Assembly: GCF_040183065.1 (NCBI RefSeq)
Contig: NC_091117.1
Span: 113,063,001 to 113,127,000, forward strand
Direction: 5' to 3'
Origin: Periplaneta americana
Taxonomy: Eukaryota; Arthropoda; Insecta; Blattodea; Blattidae
Length of the DNA: 64,000 nt
Part shown: positions 45,840 to 61,800 of the stretch, in pieces
Numbering within the stretch: position 1 is the first letter of the stretch
Layout of the letters: each line of letters begins with the position of its first letter
The notes under the pieces: model-generated
Told to the model about the DNA's origin: nothing
What the model saw: the letters and a program-made list of their open reading frames with translations, nothing else
Database searches by the model: none
Made by a program: the position numbers and the translations under genes

Positions 45840-45981
45840 CTGAGACTCAACATAACAAATGGCGGCAGTTATATTGCATCGTTTAGGGCCGTTTTCTCCA
45901 AAGTAAGTTAAACTTGGGACAAATTAAACCCGTTCAACTTTACTATTCAGTTTAAACATGCTTCCATTTTCTCCATAAATA

Positions 45982-46011
45982 CATGGATAAATATATAATA
46001 GGATGCGAAAC
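45982..46011 (+). repeat. Left terminal inverted repeat of P-type element
   Basis: 30 bp beginning CATGGATAAATATATAATAG and ending GCGAAAC. Confidence 0.93.
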
Positions 46012-46176
46012 CGCGGTCAGCACGATCTAGATGCGGTATTCTGAAATAAGGTGATCAGCGCCCGACGTCGTAGGTGGTAAATCATATAACTACGTGAGAA
46101 CCAGCGTTCTCCACTTTCCGATACGAAGTAGTCAGAACGTTGGCCGATGACCAGCCAACAGCGTTTTGAAGGCAAG

Positions 46177-46654
46177 ATGGATGCCAGAAAAATGCAAAAG
46201 ATTCGAGGAAGATGCTCAGCGCCTGGATGCAAGACTGTTAATACTGTGGGAGGGAAGCATTTTTTCTATTTTCCTCAGGAACCTATGAGGTAAGCTTTAG
46301 TATTATTATTGTGTCCTGTGTAGCCTAAACCTTACACTTGAAAACAATGTACTTTTTGGTGAAGTAGGTTAGACGAGCTGTGCATTGCTTTCTGCTAATT
46401 TATTTAGGATTATAGTAGGAGTATAAATTTAGATGGTTCCGAAATTCAGTCAAACTGTAACGAAATGTGAAATATTGACGAAAAAGAGCAAGAAGGGTGA
46501 AAATGAAACCTCGTAAACCTGAATTGTAGCATTAGGCCACATGGCTGCAAACTAAAACCACGTGGTTTTTAGTATAAACATCTCACAGTTATGGAAAATA
46601 AAATTATGCCTTCTTTGATGTAGTTAGCCATTCTGGAGAAATTCTCAATCATGT

Positions 46655-46709
<55 letters not shown>

Positions 46710-47090
46710 GCTTAGGCCTAATTTTTATTTAGTTTGTACCCAATATCCGTTGCTGTTACCAGTTTTCCTATGGTCACTCACCACCTAGTGATGCGCATTA
46801 GACATCTCTTAAAATAACACAAATGCAGCAGATAAGTTATTATTTTTTTCCCCAATTTTTGCATGATTTCTATTCAATATTTCTTCTACTTTATCTCATT
46901 AGTAATTGTAATCCATTGCTTTAGTTGTTGGAAGTGGCTCCGATTTTGTGGGCTAGGGGACCGGTATCGAGTTGCCGCAGATGCCATACACAGGTTGAGA
47001 ATCTGCATGGACCACTTCATTGAGTCTGACTATTATAGCTCTTCACAAAAAGTGATACTTAAGCAAACTGCAGTGCCCACTGTTCATGCT
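46177..47090 (+). other. THAP zinc-finger domain spanning exons 1 and 2
   Basis: Cys residues sit in CSAPGC (exon 1) and C and H in ICMDHF (exon 2), with the conserved FP and W (YFPQEP; CWKWL) and the terminal AVPT box. The intron (46290-46924) splits the domain after the FPQEPM segment. The intron has GTAAGC and TTTAG ends and carries an (AAT)n array at 46659-46707. THAP domains of P elements bind the subterminal DNA. Confidence 0.88.
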
Positions 47091-50000
47091 AATGGATTAG
47101 TGGTGCCATCAAACCCTAAAATCCGGAGCCCACCATCTAGCCCAGCTATGCCTCGAGCGACCTTATCACCGGGGTCTACCCTAACTTTCAGGCATCACAA
47201 GACTTTGCGGACGTATGCTAGGAGGGCGAAGATTGATTCTGCAGCTGCTGAAGGTAATTAGTACACTAGCAATGTTTTTATGTCATTCATGTTTAAAATT
47301 TCCGATTTCATTACTCTTTTCTTTATTTTCAGGTACGTGTAGTCTCATAGATTTACAAGCTGCAACTGAGCAGGCTGCAGGCTTGGCAGCTATGCCTCAA
47401 ACAATTCCTGCTCCTATGAGTACTCCAGCTTCAAAGATTACTGCTTCGACGGCATATGCCGGGATGAATAAAGATGCGTGCCAACAAGGTAATTATTCCA
47501 CTTAGTCAAGTTTATGGATTTCAAGGAATGCCTTAGTTTCTCATCAGCTGTTCTTACATTACATGTTTCAAAATACATAATTAATTATGTTTCTTTTTTT
47601 TTTGTAATTATTACAGGGAACAGTATGATTGGTGAACAGCTGAGGGCTATCAGCAACCATCGCTCCTATTCAATGTGGTTCCCACAGCTGAAGGTAAGCG
47701 ATACTGTCTTGTGAGCCTGGTAACATGCTAGTAATCATTTAAGTTAATTGCCCCCTGCCATATGTCTGCAGTTTTCATACTTCATTCTTTTACAGTAGCG
47801 AATAATAACAAATCCTCTTAACTACAGGGCAGGGTGTTTATCTTGTTATATATCGATCGTCCAGTTCAAAAGTGCGACAACTCAAAAATTGCCATTTTTT
47901 AGTTATTTATACTACTGAAAGCCCCTTTCGGAGCTCTTTCCGATTCAATATTGAGATAGGTCATATTTACAACCAAAAAGAATAAAAACGAAATAAACTG
48001 CTTTAGAAGTAATTATAACTATGGACTTTATTAATTCATTATTACTACATTTCGAAATCTATTAATAATGAACTGGAAAATCGTGATATACTCGTCCTGA
48101 ATACTGACTCATTTCTAATTGTCGTGGTTATGAACCACAAATCTGTCCCTTTTTAGGGGATTTATTTGAAACTTTCAACTGAAGATATCTCAAAACTTGT
48201 TTTTTTTTTTAGTTGTCGCACTTTTGAACCAGACGATCGATATTGCAACTGATATCCTGACAAGTCTCCCTGGCACGAAGTACACCATCATTCCCTCTTA
48301 CTGACTTCTCTTTAATATTCCAACACCTCTGCTGATTATCCCTTTCTGTTAGTGTCAGTTGTCCTCTATGGCCCAGCCTATTAGCAAAAAAAAATATTTT
48401 ATATTACATTACAACGAACAATTCAGATTAACACAATCAAATTTGTTGCAGCATTAAACTTTTGGATTGTTACTATTACTTAACATTTATATGAGTTATA
48501 ATTTGTACAGTTAAGAGCAGTTTGAAATGAATGGAGCACAAAGTCTGTTCAATTCTTGCTTCAATTTAATTTATCATTTATTTCCTTAGATACTGACATG
48601 AATACATCCATGATGGAACAGTTTCCTTCAGCTTCAGCTACACCTCCTTCCAAACTTGGTAAATACTGATCACATTTTGATGTATTGTCAATTTTGTAGT
48701 ATGTTATATAGCCTATCCATAGCTTGCATGCCTTTTGTTAGGCCTACATTAACTTAACAAGGCTAAAGGTGTTGTCACGTTTCATTTTTTATTTAAAATA
48801 GTTCCCAGCAATTAGATTAATCTGAAGTTAATTTCGTAATCTTTAGGTCCTGGTGTTGCAAAACGAAAACTTTTCTCCAGTCCTCACTTCTCATCTTCAC
48901 CCAGGAGCAACAAACTAAAAATGGCAGCTCTGAAAGCAAAGGTGAAGAGACTGGAGAAAAAATTGCAACAAGTCGAAGAAGACAGAATTTCGGATCAAGT
49001 TGGAAGGAGAAGGGAGCCAATGGCCACATCATCTCAACTGCCAACAATTGTTCAAAAGATATACGAGGCACAGGTGCAGATGAGAAAAATTCATAAACAT
49101 GGATATAGATGGAGTGACGTCATGAAAGATTTTTCTTTGTCATTATTTTATCACAGTCCTAAAGGATATAATTTTATGAAAAAACTTTTCCTATTGGCCA
49201 GTATCAAGACACTTCAAAGTTATCAGAACAAAATAGACATTGAGTCAGGTCTGATGCAGCGTGTTTTGACAACTCTTAAGTCACTTGCTGCAGGGCCTCT
49301 GTCTGACAGATCAGAGAATGTATGTTCACTGATCATTGATGAAATTGCCATACGTCAGCAGTTGCATTATGACTCTAAATCTGATATGATTAAGGGTTTT
49401 GCTGACGATGGAATAGCAAGATATCCCATGAAAATAGGTAACCATTGTTTGATGGCAATGGTTAAAGGGATTAAGAAGGGATGGAAACAGGTAATAGGTT
49501 ATTGGATATCTGATGGTCCTATATCTGCTACATCTCTCTTGAACATTGTCAATTTGTGTGTTTGTGAACTTCACAAAATCGGGTTCCATATTAAGGTTTT
49601 AATATGTGATCAAGGTACAAATAATCAAAGTTTGGCATCTAAATTGGGGGTTTCAGCAGTAAGACCGTATTTTGAAGTCAATGGGAATAAAATTCATTTC
49701 ATGTATGATCCACCACACCTTTTGAAGTCCATTAGGAACAACTTATTGCGATATGATTTGCATTACATGGAAAAGCCTGTATCTTGGTCACATATTAGAA
49801 CTATCTATGATATGCATGATGATGTGTTAAAACTTAAGTTAGTTCCTAAACTTACAAAGGACCATGTTTTCCCTAAAATGTTTTCTCGTATGAAGGTTAA
49901 GTTGGCAACACAGGTGTTTTCCTATTCTGTACATACTGCAATTCTTGCATATGTTGGAATGGGAAAGCTATCTATCAGTGCTCTGCATACTGCCGACTTC

Positions 50001-50883
50001 ATTGAGATGATGGACAAGCTGTTTGACACTTTCAATAGCACGAAACTGAAAACAGATAAATTTAAATATATATTTGCCATAACTCCTGACTCCGTTCACG
50101 TAGAATCTTTGAAAAAAAAAAAAAAAAGAAACTTTGAATGACATTCAGTATTTGGAATTCGTGGGTTGCAAGTGTCAGCCAGCTTGTCCTGAAGGTTGGA
50201 GAATTAGTATTCAGAGCTTGCTGAATTTGTTCGATGAGCTTAGTTCTGAGTACAACATTCCTAAATTAAGGACTCGATTTCTGAGTCAGGATGCATTGGA
50301 GAATACATTTGCTACCATAAGACAACAACACGGGTGCAATGTAAATCCATCTGTCCAACAACTTGAAAGTGGTCTTCGACACATACTCATTACATTTCCT
50401 TCCAAGTTATCACACAGAAGTAACTGCGAAAAAGATGTTGAGTATGTGTTGACGAAATTGAATAGTATTTCTGTTAGTGACAAGGCTGTTCAGGAGTCGT
50501 CATCTGTTACAGATGTAAACTGTATCAGTGATTGTACTCCTGATACTATAGTCGAAATGGATGTGGAGTGTGATACTGGACGTATCGAGGACGATAATAT
50601 TGTGTACTACATTGCAGGGTACATTTGCTCAACGTTCCTCAAAAAACATAAATGCAGTCACTGTAAAAATACTCTCACTCTGGGAGAAAGCCAGAGAGAA
50701 CTGAGTGAAAGCCATCAAATATTTGCTTACTTCAAGGCATTTGATGACGATTTTGGAAGTCTTTCATTGCCCAGAAACGAAGTTTCCACTCAGTTCCGAG
50801 AATGGGAGAATTCATTCTGCAGACATTTCAAAGCAAACTGTCATTGTAAAAATTTGAGGACAGTGATGAAAAAATATGAGTAA
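46177..50883 (+). CDS. P-element/THAP9-like transposase, multi-exon, one homopolymer frameshift
   Basis: Exon 1 (46177-46289) starts MDARKMQKIRGRCSAPGC and ends at AG|GTAAGC. Exon 2 (46925-47253) completes the C2CH THAP finger: C-x4-C, then CMDHF (C-x2-H), and the AVPT box (KQTAVPTV). Exon 3 is 47333-47488 and a short exon is 48590-48658. The last exon (48847-50883) has a coiled coil (LKAKVKRLEKKLQQVEE) and the RNase H-like core: D in LIIDEIAIRQQLHYDSKSD, D in LICDQGTNNQ, the DPPHLLKSIRNNLL block and E in SQDALENTFATIRQQHG. A Cys pair, KCSHCKNTLTL, follows near the end. All joins keep frame as 1-2-3-48590-48847. An A16 run (50112-50127) shifts the frame, consistent with one extra A. Expected length is about 900 residues, like THAP9. 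It catalyses excision and integration of its own element. Exact exon 3 and 48590 limits are inferred from splice signals. Confidence 0.85.
47617..47693 (+). other. Candidate cassette or poison exon of 77 bp
   Basis: It is bounded by a T-rich tract with TTACAG and by AAG|GTAAGC, and it is open in the frame carried from exon 3 (MIGEQLRAISNHRSYSMWFP). Its length is not a multiple of three. Including it would bring TGA into frame four codons into the 48590 exon; skipping it keeps the frame. It could be a regulatory exon or a false one. Confidence 0.45.
47853..48240. mobile_element. 388-bp MITE in an intron of the P-type gene
   Basis: TCGATCGTCCAGTTCAAAAG (47853) and CTTTTGAACCAGACGATCGA (ending 48240) are inverted, followed inward by GTGCGACAACT on both sides. 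TA flanks at 47851-47852 and 48241-48242. It sits in the intron before the 48590 exon. Confidence 0.92.
50112..50127 (+). other. A16 homopolymer frameshift in transposase
   Basis: Sixteen A residues in the catalytic exon. The upstream frame ends 14 nt later (TGA at 50139-50141). The downstream frame (LNDIQYLEFVGCK) is offset by one. It may be a true mutation, a sequencing error, or a slippage site. Confidence 0.85.
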
Positions 50884-51090
50884 AATGCCAGTAATTTATC
50901 TCTTTGTAGTCAGGACCAATTCAATAATTTGTTTAATATGTATATAGTATCTAGGATTAATTGGTCGACTCGGTTTATCAACCAGTCACATTGTTTTGGT
51001 CCTGACTTCAAGAGAAAACTAAGGATATTAAATAATTTTTGAGTCTCTTCTGAGAAGAAAGTAGGTACAGTGTTGATAGCATCACATGTA

Positions 51091-51521
51091 CACTGGTGTT
51101 CAAAGATATCCGGCCTATGATTATATTATGACCATGTAAGCAAACTCTCCAATCATCACGGAATAAGTCAGAACCAAAGACATTAAAAATTGACAAAAAT
51201 TGGAAGAATTCCACTAGTTCTCAATAAGTGGTACCATTATTTGAGCAGTTAAAAACGTGTCAGGAAAAATTACTATGTAGATTGAGCATAAATTATTCTC
51301 GTAATTGACAATATCAGTGGTTTCCCGCTAAATTCAGTGTTGCTTCGCAATAAGCAGAGTGGGATGAAAAATTGAATTCTATAATGCGGGTATATTTATG
51401 TATGATTGGCAACACTGACTATTATCACCACCATGTATTCATACAAGTAATAACTAAATAAGCCATACTTACGCCAAAAAAAAATATCGATTAGTAGGGC
51501 CAGATATTTTGAACGTCAGTG
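51091..51521. mobile_element. 431-bp MITE, TA-flanked
   Basis: CACTGGTGTTCAAAGATATC (51091) and GATATTTTGAACGTCAGTG (ending 51521) are inverted with few mismatches. TA lies at 51089-51090 and 51522-51523. Confidence 0.88.
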
Positions 51522-51523
51522 TA

Positions 51524-51906
51524 CAGTAGTGGCAAGAAAACCCGGACCGACAGAATAATCAAAGTCCCCAAAATTAGCCACTGCACATGCCACACCTGCA
51601 TTCACAAGATAGCGATTAATCTATTAAAATTGTTGTAGTCTCGACTGCTGACTTAGCCCATTTTGAAAGCCATTAGAAAATAAGCTGGTAAAATTCATGT
51701 TCTGGGAATAATAAGTTAATTTAGTATAATATCGCTGCAATCAAAAAGTATTGGGAATAAATTTGAATAAGGAACAAAAAAAGGTTCCTTTCCAGGCAGG
51801 ATTCGAACCACGAAAGTCTTAGTTACCAGTCTATTGTGTTCTGGAGTGAACAAGGCTCTGAAATCAGCTACAAGGGTCGGTCCGTTTTTTCTTTTTGCCA
51901 CTGCTG
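51524..51906. mobile_element. 383-bp MITE abutting the previous one
   Basis: CAGTAGTGGCAAGAAAA (51524) and TTTTTGCCACTGCTG (ending 51906) are inverted, with (G)GTCGGTCCG/CGGACCGAC further in. TA lies at 51522-51523 and 51907-51908. The left TA is shared with the neighbouring MITE. Tc1-like ends. Confidence 0.85.
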
Positions 51907-52469
51907 TACATCATTGTGCATCTATCGTCTTGGATTGCAGCTACCTAGAGTAGTGACCCACCCATCTCTCATCTGCATACTGTGAACTCGACAGTGTCTT
52001 TAAAGTGGTGTAAATAGCTCATATTGTGTGTAACAAAAAGGTATATCATATTGGTGGAAAGTTCATAGCTTTTTTTATTATTTTTTTAAATATTTATTTA
52101 TTTATTTATTTTTGCCCCAGAAAAATATGTTTTTAGCAAATGTTAAATATATTGTGTAATTGTAGGGAGCAAAGTTACAGTATGTGGTACATGTGTGTGT
52201 ATGTAAGAGAGATATTTGACTTTGGAAGTTGGGGGTTAACATACCTTCAGTTCACCTAGTAAACTCTTTTGCCCAACATAATGCAAGTAAGTGATGCAGC
52301 TCATGTATTTCACTCTGACCCTCAGTACATACAACATTTTGGTATACACTACCTTTATGTGTATGCCAAACAACAATGTCTAAGAACCTTAGTTGTGATC
52401 CTAGAAAAGTGTTCTAAAATGTGTTGCAAAATAGTAGATAAGTAATATGACAGTTTCAATTATCAAACA

Positions 52470-52640
52470 TTTTTTTGTAGTATCTGAAATCTGATTAATG
52501 AAATATGTATTTAGTCAGTGATGTATGCAACGGAGGGGGGAAAGGAATTGGCCACTCTTACTCATTACCTCCTGCTCTGATTGCCCCATGAGTGTCACTT
52601 GTAGGGTCCAAACCTGTTTTTCGACAGTTGACTAAACAAT
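52470..52640 (+). repeat. Dispersed repeat, copy 2 (see 7060-7275)
   Basis: GTGATGTATGCAACGGAGGG, TTGGCCACTC and GACAGTTGACTAAACAA match the first copy in order. Confidence 0.75.
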
Positions 52641-53409
52641 AGTTGATGGGTCCAGGCAGACAAGGGGACAAACCATAAATTTCGATACGTAGGATATCTC
52701 ATTGGAATGTGAAGAAATATGTTCTGACTAAACTATATGACAACACATTATTCAAATGGTATCATTTACATCTGTAAACGAGCACAGATGGCAGAGCATT
52801 CCAAAATATAAATATATAGATGTGGCTTTTTCTCTTATCCGACTGGGCCCTACAATTTCAATTATTCAATTTGTTGTATAGACTTTACCAAAGTACTGCA
52901 CACTAAATATGTAAGTGTATCTGTGTGTATAGGATTACCAGATGTTCTGGATTTCGCTTGACATGTCCTGCGTCCTGCCAGGGTTCGTAAAAATCAGAAA
53001 TTTTCCTGCTTTTCTTTCTTGCCAATTCCCAATGGACAAAAGAGAGTAACTATTGAGTTGGGGTCCATTAGAGGAATTATGTTTATAAAATCCTTGCTCA
53101 AACAAGTCGAGTCACCAGAGAAGTATTAACAATCAGAAAATTAAATAAGGTGAAAGCTAATTTAGAATCCGTATACTTCAATTCTATTCATGATAATAGT
53201 TTTGTATCAGTTTTATTGTACAAAGACAAACAAATTACCTTATTATATCACAGAATGTAAAAAGACGTCACGTCAAGTATCAAGTTAGTCTATTATGCCC
53301 TGCCTTTATATGGAAAATTCTTTTTCATTTAAAATGACCTGCTTTTAAATTGTTACAATCTGGTAATCCTAGTGCACATGTAGTGTATGTTAAACAGTGA
53401 TATGATGGA
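52641..53409. other. No gene recognised
   Basis: AT-rich filler inside the P-type element. Confidence 0.5.
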
Positions 53410-54003
53410 CCTTGTCAAAATTGTGTTGCTATCTTCTCTTTAAGGCCTATTCATAATCCTCCTCCTTTGGTTCTTCTAAATGAACAAGTTACATGGCTCT
53501 CTAATCAAGAAGCTGTCAAATATTTGGGAATATTATTAGACACGAAACTTACATGGAATGCCCATATAACTCGCATTGTTACACTAACCTCTTCTAGAAT
53601 TCGAAAATTATACCCTTTGATTAATAGACGTTCACAAATTGGATTGGACTATCCAATGCTACTCTACACCTCGCTTGTACGACCTCTTTTAACTTATGCA
53701 GCGCCAGTGTGGGAGACTGCAAATAAGACACACATGCATAACCTACAAGTTCTCCAGAACAAGTTCCTGCGTACTGCAACAAATGCCCCCTGGTTTGTAA
53801 GAAATCAACAACTGCATCAAGAATTGGGAATTCTTCCACTAGAACAGTACATCCATTCTATGTCAAAATCTTTCTTCAACAAACTTCCTGGTGTTCCTGG
53901 AGCTGTGACATATAACATTGGAGCAAGAACTTGTCAGCCATCTCGACTTAAAAGGAAACTCCCTCAAGACATCCTTCTTAGTGATACTGACGACTCTTCA
54001 TAA
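53410..54003 (+). pseudogene. Jockey-clade LINE, C-terminal part of RT polyprotein
   Basis: An uninterrupted frame (AIFSLRPIHNPPP through to the TAA at 54001-54003) covers the region after the RT catalytic core. It includes EAVKYLGILLDTKLTWNAHI, LLYTSLVRPLLTYAAPVWET, NLQVLQNKFLRTATNAPWFV and NQQLHQELGILPLEQYI. This sequence order is typical of Jockey elements. It is 5'-truncated and nested in the 3' half of the P-type element. No target duplication was located. The long open frame suggests it is fairly young. Confidence 0.85.
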
Positions 54004-54538
54004 TTTAACACAGAAAATCATCATATTTTTACTCACATCATTCACAAAAATGTTTAATTAATTAATTTAAATTAATTAGAGGAGCCTTTAGAGCCAACCT
54101 CAGCATGATATTCTGCATGTGATATTCCATCATTTAACAGTGGTCTGTATAGCAAGTTTGCTGATCGACCAATATTAAACATAAAAAAAAATATGTCGTT
54201 GAATGTATTGTAAAATATTATACAGTAATATAGTAATTTCAAGTATGTAACTAGTTTTTGCAGACTTAAAGTGCACTATACACTATTACCTAAAGAATAA
54301 AATCCCAATTATCTAAGCTTGCTCTCTTTTATTTTCTGTCCCTGTTTGGCTGTATTTTAATTAGTTACATTATAAGGCAGTGTAAAATAGACCGTCTCTT
54401 CCAACTATTGGCTCCAATAACAATTTTCAGTGAAAGATGATGTGAGGAATAAAAATTTTAAAATTTTATTTTAAATTGAGGGGTGTATGGCGGTGGGGGG
54501 GAGGAGGAGGAGGAATATTTACTGCATATAGTTCAACT
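54004..54538. other. No gene; probable LINE 3' region and filler
   Basis: AT-rich, with a G-rich patch (GGTGGGGGGGAGGAGGAGGA) near 54494. Confidence 0.5.
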
Positions 54539-54670
54539 TTTCGCCGCCAGGTGCGCTGCTAGATGCACGGAGTAATTAGTTATTACTTTTGCTACTTGGG
54601 TGCGCTGCTGGACGCACGGAGTAGTTACTCTTTTCGCCACTTGGTGCGCCGCTAGCTGTAATAACGCCTC
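54538..54670. repeat. Three subterminal direct repeats of the P-type element
   Basis: GTGCGC(T/C)GCT(A/G)G cores are at 54551, 54600 and 54644, each preceded by a CGCC/GCTACTTGG-like segment. The first two are followed by GCACGGAGTA. They lie about 100-200 bp inside the right end, where transposase-binding sites are expected. Confidence 0.8.
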
Positions 54671-54742
54671 ACCATATATAGATGGCAGCACGATCAATTT
54701 CTACAACAGCGCCTCTAGTATGTGTTACGGGAAACTCAGTAA

Positions 54743-54996
54743 GTTTCGCATCCTATTATATGAGTAGTTTAATATCAAAGACGGACATCTCCATCTAGAG
54801 GCAATTTTTTGTTTCACAGTGTTCTTTGTAATATTTAACACAATTTATTTTATAAGTGTAGTGTTAGAATTTGCATATGGTTTCACTATAACTGGAAAGA
54901 GAATGAAAAATTGTATAAAAATCCACAGCTATCTCAATTTCTATCTAAGGTCAGATTTTCGCCTTTGATATTAAGCTACTCATATATTTATCCATG
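54743..54996 (-). repeat. Right terminal inverted repeat, split by a MITE
   Basis: GTTTCGCATCCTATTATA (54743-54760) and TATTTATCCATG (54985-54996) together are the exact complement of the left end. Confidence 0.93.
54761..54982. mobile_element. 222-bp MITE inside the P-type right end
   Basis: TGAGTAGTTTAATATCAAAG (54761) and CTTTGATATTAAGCTACTCA (ending 54982) are inverted with one mismatch. TA duplications lie at 54759-54760 and 54983-54984. Confidence 0.95.
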
Positions 54997-55194
54997 ATAA
55001 ATAGCTGGCAGCCCACCCGTTTAAAGCAACGAGCACAGAATGCATAGAGTAGATATAAACAGCTTGGAGGTGAAGCCGCTTTTGTGGACAGTCGCCATTA
55101 TGATGCTACCAAAACAATGGGCTCCCGGTTAGCACATGGGCAGTTGATTGTGATGTTGCATCGTTGTTTTAATTAATAAATTAACTAATTTCAA

Positions 55195-55349: not shown

Positions 55350-55850
55350 TTCGTATTGTTCACGTATTTGTTTGATTAAGAGAAAGGATTAGTGTATTGA
55401 TATTATTGTAATTAATTTTTATAATCACTAAATCAGACACGCTTTGTAAACTTAGCATTTACGAGCGAAGCTAACCTAACAACGCAAGTTGGAAGTTTGT
55501 GTCGCGTGCTATAGAAAATGGGTGTAACGAGGTTTCTCTTCAACCGAATGCACGTATTCGTTTGATGAAAAAGAAAGAGTGTATTAATATTATTGTAATT
55601 AATTTTTATAATCACGAAATCAGACATGCTTTGCAGACTTAGCATTTACGAGCGAAGCTAACCTAACAACCCATGTTGGAAGTTTGTGTCGAGTGCTATA
55701 GAAAACGGGTGTACCGAAGTTTCTCTTAAACCGAATGCACGTATTCGTTTGATGAAGAAAAAGAAATAGTGTATTAATATTATTGTAATTAATTTTTATA
55801 ATCACGAAATCAGACTTATGCTTTACAGACTTAGTAGCTTCATTAACTCG
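55350..55850. repeat. 188-bp tandem repeat, about 2.6 copies
   Basis: GTGTATT(G/A)ATATTATTGTA starts are at 55392, 55579 and 55769. Each unit contains GAGCGAAGCTAACCTAACAA. Confidence 0.92.
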
Positions 55851-59415: not shown

Positions 59416-59424
59416 TTGCAAGGA

Positions 59425-60860
59425 CTGAGAGGACAGAGACTGGAATTAGAGTACAGAGAGTGGACTGAGAGTACAGAGAGTAAACTGAAAGTACAGAGAG
59501 TGGACTGAGAGGAATGACAATGGACTGAGAGGACAGAGAGGAGCCTGGGAGGATAGATAGAGCACTGAGGGCTACAGAGAAAGCTAAGAGAACAGAGGGA
59601 ACAGAGACTGAACTGAGTGACAAGAAGGTGGAGAGCGAGGATGGTGAGTAAACTGAGAGACCAGAGAGTGGACGGAGGGGACAGAGAGTAGACTGAGAGG
59701 AAAGGAAATGGATTGAGAGGACAGAAAGTGGACAGAGATTACAGAGAGTGAATTGAGAGTACAAAGAGTAAACTGAGGGGCAGAGAATGGAATGAAGGGA
59801 CAGAATGGACTGAGACGACAGTGAGAGGACTCAGACAACAGTGTGTAGCCTGAGAGGATAGGGAATGAGCAAGAGGAGTGGGAATGAGCTAAGAGAACAG
59901 AGAGTGAACTGAGAGAAAAGAGAGTGGACACAGAGAATGTTGAGTATATTGAGAGAACAGAGAGTGGACTGAGAGGACAGAGAAGGGGCAGAGATTACAG
60001 AGAGTGAATTGAGAAGACGCAGATTGGACTGAGAGGAGAGAGAGAGAGAGGACTGAGGTAGTAGAACAGGGAAAGGAAACAGAGTGGACCGATATCAAAG
60101 AGAGATTACTGAAATTACAGTGAGTGAGCATAGAGAGGACTGAGAGGAAAGAATTCTGACTCACAGTTTCCCCAGTTCACTCTCAGTCTTCTCTCTATCC
60201 TCTCAGTCCACTCTCTGTCCTCTCAGTTCACTCTCTGTACACTCAATCCACTCTCAGTTTTCACCCCACTCTGTCCTCTCAGTCTACTCTCTGTTACCTG
60301 AGTTCATATTCTGTACTCTCTGTCCTCTCAGACTGTCGATCCACACTCTGTCTCCTCTGGTCTCCTCACTGTTTTCTCAGTCCACTCTCTGTCACCTGAG
60401 TCTACTCTCTGTCCCTTCCCTGTTCTCTCAGATCACTCTCTGTCCTATCAGTCCACTCTTTGTCTTCTCAGTCCACTCTCTGTCTTCACTCTGTCCTCTG
60501 AGTCCACACTCTGTGCTCTCAGTACACTCTCTGTTCTCTCAGTCAACTCTATCCTCTCTGTTCACTCTCTCTTCTCTCAGTTCACTCTCTGATCCCTCTC
60601 TATTCTTTTAGTTCCCTCCTATTCCCACAGTGCTCCATCTATTCTCTCAGTCTACTCTCTGTCCTCTCAGACCCCTTTCTGTCCTCTCAGTCCACTGCCT
60701 GTCCTTTCATTCCACTCTCTGTAGGCCTATTCACAGTCCACTCTCTGTACACTAAGTTCACTCTGTCATTTTTGTGCCTTCTCTGCCCTCTGCCTTCCCT
60801 CTGTCCACTCTGTCTCGTCTCAAAGTTCAATTCATGAAGGAAAGAGAAGACTGAGAATAA
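59425..60860. repeat. Giant inverted minisatellite (about 20-bp unit, two opposed arms)
   Basis: From 59425 to about 60155 the plus strand repeats GGACAGAGAGTGGACTGAGA in degenerate form. From about 60165 to 60850 it repeats the complement, TCTCAGTCCACTCTCTGTCC. The purine-rich strand switches at about 60160 without a long spacer. Each arm is about 700 bp. Long open frames across the array (Ser/Val/Leu-rich) are products of the unit. Confidence 0.95.
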
Positions 60861-60905: not shown

Positions 60906-61800
60906 AAGTTTTTTTTAGATTTAGATTTTCCAGCAAATCTGTCATACCCACAGTAATGAATTTTAATTTTAAGGGGCTCGAACTAAGGAGATAATACGCT
61001 GACTAGGTTCAAACTACAGTCCGATATTTAACGGAGGGGGTTCATTATGTATACAAGTTCAGATTTTTCCTGGAATTCTTTATTCCTACAATAAGCAATT
61101 ACACATTTTCAAGGCTCGAACTCAGGAAATAATTCCGTCATTGGGTTAAAACTACAGACTGTAATGTGGCGGAAGATTTGCATTGTGCATACAAGTTTTT
61201 AGTTTTTCCTAAAATTTTTTATTTCTTTAATAAAAAATTATAAATTTTCGAGGCTCAAACTCAGAGAATAAAACCGTCATTGGGTTCAAACTACAGGCTG
61301 TAATTTGGCGGAAGATGTGTTTTGTGTATACAAGTTTTAAATTTTTCCTGTAATTTTTATGTCTCTAATGAAGAATTATAAGTTTTCGGGGCTCAAACCC
61401 AGGAAATAATACCGTCACTGGGTCCAAACTACAGACTGTAATTTGGCGGAAGTCGAGCAGTGTGTATGCAAATTTTTAGATTTTTCCTGGAAATTTTCAT
61501 GCCTCTAATAAACAATTATAGCCTACACTTTCGGTATTCGAACTCAGGAAATATAGCCGTCACCTTGTCCAAACAAGAGACTGTAATTTGTCGGAAGATG
61601 TGCATTGTCTATACAAGTTTTTAGATTTTTCCTGCAATTTTTGGTCTCTAATAAAGAATTATAAATTTTCGGGGCTCAAACCCAGGATATAATGCCATCA
61701 CTGAATCCAAACTACAGACTGTAATTTCGCGGAAGTGGAGCATTGCGTGTACATGTTTTTGGACTTTTTCTGTAATTTTTTATACCTATAATGATGAATT
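60906..61800. repeat. Tandem array, 138-149-bp unit, about 6.5 copies
   Basis: Copy starts (AAGTTTTTAGATTTTTCCTG) are at 60906, 61055, 61193, 61332, 61470, 61615 and 61753. Each unit has GGCTCGAACTCAGGAAATAA and CAAACTACAGACTGTAATTT. Copies have diverged, so the array is old. Confidence 0.95.

Follow-up and report, generated by a model that had tools for sequence, protein, structure and literature searches.

The element at 45982-54996 of the window, a 64,000-nucleotide stretch of contig 1 of the Periplaneta americana assembly, is almost certainly a degraded member of a P-superfamily family of cut-and-paste DNA transposons that is present in many copies. The parent form of this family would be about 8 kb long, with a six-exon THAP-type transposase, joining to the target at points 7 bp apart, and non-autonomous derivatives. 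It is a new family of a known kind. Compared with this, the initial annotation of the same DNA overstated the novelty and gave only part of the reason why the copy is inactive.

Ends of the element

The element is bounded by one 30-bp sequence in inverted orientation, with ATAAATA as the flanking target-site duplication (45975-45981 on the left, 54997-55003 on the right). The left terminal inverted repeat, CATGGATAAATATATAATAGGATGCGAAAC, lies on the plus strand at 45982-46011. Its counterpart on the minus strand is split into an inner arm (54743-54761) and an outer arm (54982-54996, including an ATAT duplication) by a 220-bp MITE (54762-54981) with ATAT on both sides. When the 4-bp ATAT is counted once, both arms match the left end without any mismatch. 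Hence, the initial annotation was right in reading the repeat as perfect after subtraction of the MITE, and ATAAATA as duplicated on both sides. The MITE itself has 34-nt inverted ends (88% identity, ATAT included) and its 4-bp ATAT duplication; it is found in the window copy alone, the right repeat being uninterrupted in 17 of the 17 other copies with both ends.

The repeat stops at 30 bp in the window element. No second match to the left repeat was found within the window at up to three mismatches, and shuffled windows contained no match to the 30-bp end at this threshold, none being expected by chance. CATGG opens the left end in 20 of the 20 copies fetched at full length. P-superfamily terminal inverted repeats start with CA, and the ends of the Drosophila P element start with CATG.

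Inside the left end, ATCTAGATGCGGT (46025-46037, plus strand, element position 44) is a candidate subterminal inverted repeat, with a partner located 89-90 bp from the right end at one mismatch in the three copies examined. About 0.1 such pairs are expected by chance, and the pair is only suggestive of a subterminal repeat. The right subterminal region contains a tandem repeat of 2.8 copies of a unit of about 49 bp (54528-54655, plus strand), near which GYGCYNCTAG occurs three times (0.54 expected per window). Further tandem arrays lie to the right of the element, with a 187-bp unit in 2.5 copies (55361-55834), degenerate units of about 20 bp (59422-60722) and a 138-bp unit in 5.9 copies (60959-61792).

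A six-exon THAP-type transposase gene

Exon borders were placed at AG/GT sites, with P0002, an NCBI protein from P. americana, as a guide. All six exons are on the plus strand. Exon 1 (46147-46289), bordered by a GT donor and matching P0002, carries the start codon and the first zinc-binding residues of the THAP finger (C-x4-C). Exon 2 (46925-47253), delimited by AG and GT, carries the remainder of the finger (W, C-x2-H, F, AVPT; PF05485). Exons 3 (47333-47488), 4 (47617-47693, one base short) and 5 (48590-48658) encode a linker. Between exons 4 and 5, a pair of 39-nt inverted repeats, 316 nt apart, occupies 47850-48243, in DNA common to other copies. The long exon 6 (48847-50883) encodes a coiled-coil stretch, read by eye, together with the domains PF12017, PF21787, PF21788 and PF21789.

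The THAP domain (PF05485) scores 30.3 bits against a cut-off of 23.9, from exon 2 alone; Pfam did not recognise it in exon 1 alone. All five families, which include a helix-turn-helix (PF12017), the N-terminal part of an RNase H domain (PF21787), a GTP-binding insertion (PF21788) and the C-terminal part of the RNase H (PF21789), exceed their curated cut-offs. This corresponds to the domain set of the P superfamily, with a THAP finger, a P-type helix-turn-helix and an RNase H into which a GTP-binding segment is inserted. In the PDB, phmmer identified the Drosophila P transposase (6p5a, E 8.9e-33, chain residues 118-452), the one relative of solved structure that was identified by sequence. The codons of two catalytic aspartates, at 49338-49340 and 49608-49610 (plus strand), align with D230 and D303 of this enzyme. 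The putative catalytic glutamate (50299-50301, plus strand), counterpart of E531, belongs to a DALENTF motif within the PF21789 match; it was placed by motif because the C-terminal piece of the transposase gave no meaningful match in the PDB. The D, D, E of the superfamily can thus be assigned, the glutamate by motif. Overall, membership in the P superfamily is supported by the domains, the catalytic residues, the ends and the solved relative, and the earlier assignment of a THAP transposase with D, D and E is borne out by the five Pfam families and the 6p5a match. The guiding model P0002 has a glycine in place of the first catalytic aspartate (LIIGEIA), and it joins distant pieces of exon 6 as if by an intron.

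Abundance and internally deleted derivatives

The genome searched (P. americana, 3,231,669,367 bases in 91 contigs) is described in the available text of its assembly paper as 3.23 Gb in 17 chromosome scaffolds and 74 unplaced contigs (PMC12774602). The exact 30-bp end occurs 763 + 712 = 1,475 times, and its backward control 0 times. This corresponds to at least about 740 copies, because a copy has at most two exact ends. The element is therefore not alone, and the idea of an isolated relic is ruled out by these 1,475 exact ends. A longer, 55-base exact pattern of the left end matched the window only, since the other copies carry differences within this stretch.

Part of these copies come from segmental duplication. 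On contig 10, six left ends are spaced by 108.6-109.9 kb (147985802-148531727; L016, L028-L030), and the four copies fetched from this contig share the flank GAAGCATATAAT; the series is probably a tandem array of segmental duplications of about 109 kb. On contig 1, two left ends pointing the same way are found only 42 bp apart (112313093 and 112313135), with another one 5 kb further on; this doublet is an insertion or a duplication at an end.

With the left 318 bases as query, 993 candidates were obtained, of which 40, window included, were scored, all with at least 97% identity. The 20 best-scoring copies after the window were fetched as 10-kb stretches, a set of best matches to the left end and not a random sample. 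Both ends are present in 17 of these 20 copies, which fall into two size groups: 8 at 4.95-4.99 kb and 9 at 7.88-8.88 kb. No right end was found within 10 kb in the other three (L031, L032 and L045). One copy, L035, has the usual left end and a 7-bp duplication, and its right subterminal sequence belongs to another type; this copy also contains further long open frames and is possibly a hybrid of two subfamilies.

All eight 5-kb copies lack the same stretch, corresponding to 48968-51991 in the window, with borders that agree within 2 bases by BLAST; the junctions of five of the eight were displayed. The deletion takes nearly all of exon 6, the catalytic exon, and leaves the THAP exons. Over the first 2.95 kb, the eight 5-kb copies are 99.05% identical on average (28 pairs) and seven long copies 98.12% (21 pairs), in a count made without L032, L034, L035, L037 and L045. 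The 5-kb class is the most alike of the groups sampled, and the window copy is 98.25-98.30% identical to either group. Shorter forms were apparent from the spacing of the ends. Among 100 listed exact ends, all from contig 1, 19 convergent pairs within 10 kb were counted by eye (14 at 748-811 bp, two at about 1.26-1.29 kb, two at about 4.9-5.0 kb and one at 6.3 kb), and 62 of the 100 ends have no exact convergent partner within this distance. The 14 pairs at 748-811 bp, known from end spacing alone, point to a MITE class.

Because they share the ends and the duplication spacing of the longer copies, the copies of about 5 kb and the end pairs of about 0.8 kb are most likely passengers, that is, non-autonomous derivatives that would be moved in trans by the transposase of the longer copies. 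A more far-reaching reading would be that the family is a very abundant P lineage of the cockroach, active until recently, which fixed its 7-bp spacing independently of Galileo, and that its 5-kb deletion class was mobilised in trans as it spread and possibly represses itself, like a natural KP outside flies; taken as a whole, this reading seems rather unlikely.

The repressor part of it can be considered separately. Small P elements frequently code for repressors, KP being an example (available part of PMC7776569), and by analogy the 5-kb class resembles a KP derivative in the parts kept and lost. A truncated THAP protein that damps transposition might then account for the spread of one shared deletion, with most of exon 6 gone and the THAP exons retained, in the most homogeneous class sampled. 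However, the reading frame stops at residue 171 in four of the eight copies, and in the other four a +2 change in exon 2 leads to a stop at residue 73, such that a whole THAP finger is possible in at most half of the class. We consider this putative repressor role improbable, and retain trans-mobilised passengers as the preferred reading of the 5-kb class.

Target-site duplications

Seventeen of the 18 long and mid-size copies, window included, are flanked by duplications of exactly 7 bp, and one (L039) by exactly 8 bp. Among the first ten short pairs of contig 1, seven have exactly 7 bp, one exactly 8 and two have 7 bp with 1 or 2 mismatches. When the flanks of the 18 copies were mispaired as a control, agreement did not exceed 4 bases in 306 trials. 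A duplication of 7 or 8 bp is a P-superfamily feature, and the 7-bp form, proposed earlier as a trait of the lineage from the window copy, is indeed a family trait in the sampled copies.

Target preference was analysed at 24 of the 28 sites, after two inexact and two exact 8-bp sites had been dropped. A is found at position -3 in 36 of 48 half-sites. A purine is found at -1 in 36 of 48, with 22 of 24 on the left and 14 of 24 on the right, the right-side mirror being not significant. Position 2 of the duplication is a pyrimidine in 39 of 48, and never G. Palindromic pairs amount to 59 of 168, as compared to 43.2 in shuffles, a value reached by 6 of 2000 shuffles. The target preference is thus weakly palindromic.

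We propose the following scheme. The parent form of about 8 kb would encode the six-exon THAP-type transposase; the enzyme from an intact copy would bind the ends and bring them together, cut the element out and insert it into the target at two points 7 bp apart, instead of 8, and repair would then produce the 7-bp duplication. By analogy with the Drosophila P system, synapsis could be GTP-dependent, excision staggered by 17 nt, and the THAP domain could contact subterminal sites.

The initial annotation had taken 7-bp duplications as a distinction from known P families. This does not hold, since Galileo, a member of the P superfamily in Drosophila, has duplications of 7 bp, in a few cases 8 bp, and a palindromic target of 15 bp (available parts of PMC4168063 and PMC2775673). 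The cockroach family shares with it the 7-bp, rarely 8-bp, duplications, a 15-bp palindromic motif centred on the duplication and a THAP transposase, and could on these grounds be a cockroach branch of the Galileo lineage instead of a separate family. Galileo is nevertheless set apart, by description, by its long, internally repetitive terminal repeats and its GTANTAC target: the cockroach repeat ends at 30 bp, and GTANTAC is absent from the 26 duplications listed for the family. A Galileo origin is improbable, and a separate P-superfamily family remains the preferred reading. No protein named Galileo occurs among the matches listed (one of the two lists gives 120 of 584, mostly nameless), so that the tree described below has no row of that name. 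It is far less probable still that the true duplication is 8 bp, as in Drosophila P, with one flanking base mutated; the exact 8-bp duplications of L039 and of one of the ten short pairs would fit, but 17 of 18 copies at exactly 7 bp contradict such decay, the loss of only the eighth base in 17 insertions being implausible.

Inactivation of the copies

The window copy is dead, as a result of frame lesions and insertions. A homopolymer frameshift had been taken as its main defect, and the frame does shift at an A16 run (50112-50127, plus strand). That it is the main defect is not supported: exon 4 is also one base shorter than in 15 of the 15 other copies compared (15 of the 20 fetched), and an exon 6 with a fully open frame is absent from all 12 long copies examined, the window copy among them. 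In addition to the MITE, the window copy carries an insertion at 53432-54186 (plus strand), with a 200-aa frame and an A-rich end, which is missing from 18 of the 18 copies that span the site. The frame has no Pfam match. It appears to resemble the C-terminal region of non-LTR reverse transcriptases, which, together with the A-rich end, suggests a 5'-truncated non-LTR retrotransposon. Neither this insertion nor the exon 4 length lesion had been noticed in the first reading.

The longest open stretch of exon 6 among the 12 long copies is 604 codons, and exon 6 is partly deleted or interrupted in L035 and L045. Upstream, no stop occurs in exons 1-5 or at the beginning of exon 6 in three of the seven other long copies checked, one of which is L031, where two small length changes cancel. 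Across ten copies, exon 6 shows 38 synonymous, 73 non-synonymous and 7 stop changes, for a neutral expectation of 27, 69 and 3%, i.e. change is near neutral. An NCBI model of the family, P0002, goes under the name of an uncharacterized P. americana protein, but a domesticated THAP9-like host gene that happens to sit between repeats has next to no probability and is ruled out by the terminal repeats and duplications, the 1,475 ends, the broken frames and the near-neutral change.

Comparison with known systems

A tree of 53 rows was built by a quick method with SH-aLRT support only; besides the window and the segment of the solved Drosophila P transposase, it contains 51 proteins out of 225 obtained. 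In this tree, two Periplaneta models and P0001 form a group with the window (SH-aLRT 100), which Chrysoperla joins next (99), among P-type transposases of animals. The Drosophila P row has a long branch and an unsure place in this tree.

The description of the element as undescribed stands in part. No paper naming the cockroach family was found in the literature searched, and the term 'P element' is absent from the main text of the P. americana assembly paper (PMC12774602). On the other hand, UniRef already names two P. americana proteins of this family, P0003 and P0086, 'Transposable element P transposas...'. A search of viral contigs, among which records of the window's own genome may be missing, yielded neither a confirmed relative nor an exact copy of 20 bases of the end. 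For specialists, this is a useful new family and no surprise. It also shows that a P. americana model named 'uncharacterized', P0002, is built on such an element.

Several P elements resemble the cockroach family. The P families and P-MITEs of Anopheles gambiae share its range of end size and have short derivatives that keep the ends of their master; in the available part of PMC1562414, their ends are 27-32 bp and their masters 3.5-7.5 kb (table rows). They differ by their 8-bp duplications and by their 3 to 41 copies per subfamily. As far as its available description goes, zebrafish Pdre2 / THAP9 shares a THAP transposase, terminal repeats starting with CAT and deleted copies; in contrast, its terminal repeats are 13 bp long and its duplications 8 bp.

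The P element of Drosophila melanogaster shares the order of the transposase domains, the D/D/E residues, ends of about 30 bp and internally deleted derivatives. The canonical features of its family are not found in the cockroach: where the Drosophila element has 8-bp duplications, 31-bp ends, a length of 2.9 kb and three introns (PMC7776569, available part), the cockroach family has 7-bp duplications, 30-bp ends, about 8 kb and five introns. The 1,475 exact ends are a large natural data set on what determines whether a P-superfamily transposase spaces its target joints by 7 or by 8 bp; the Drosophila P transposase, the only relative with a solved structure identified by sequence, makes 8-bp duplications.
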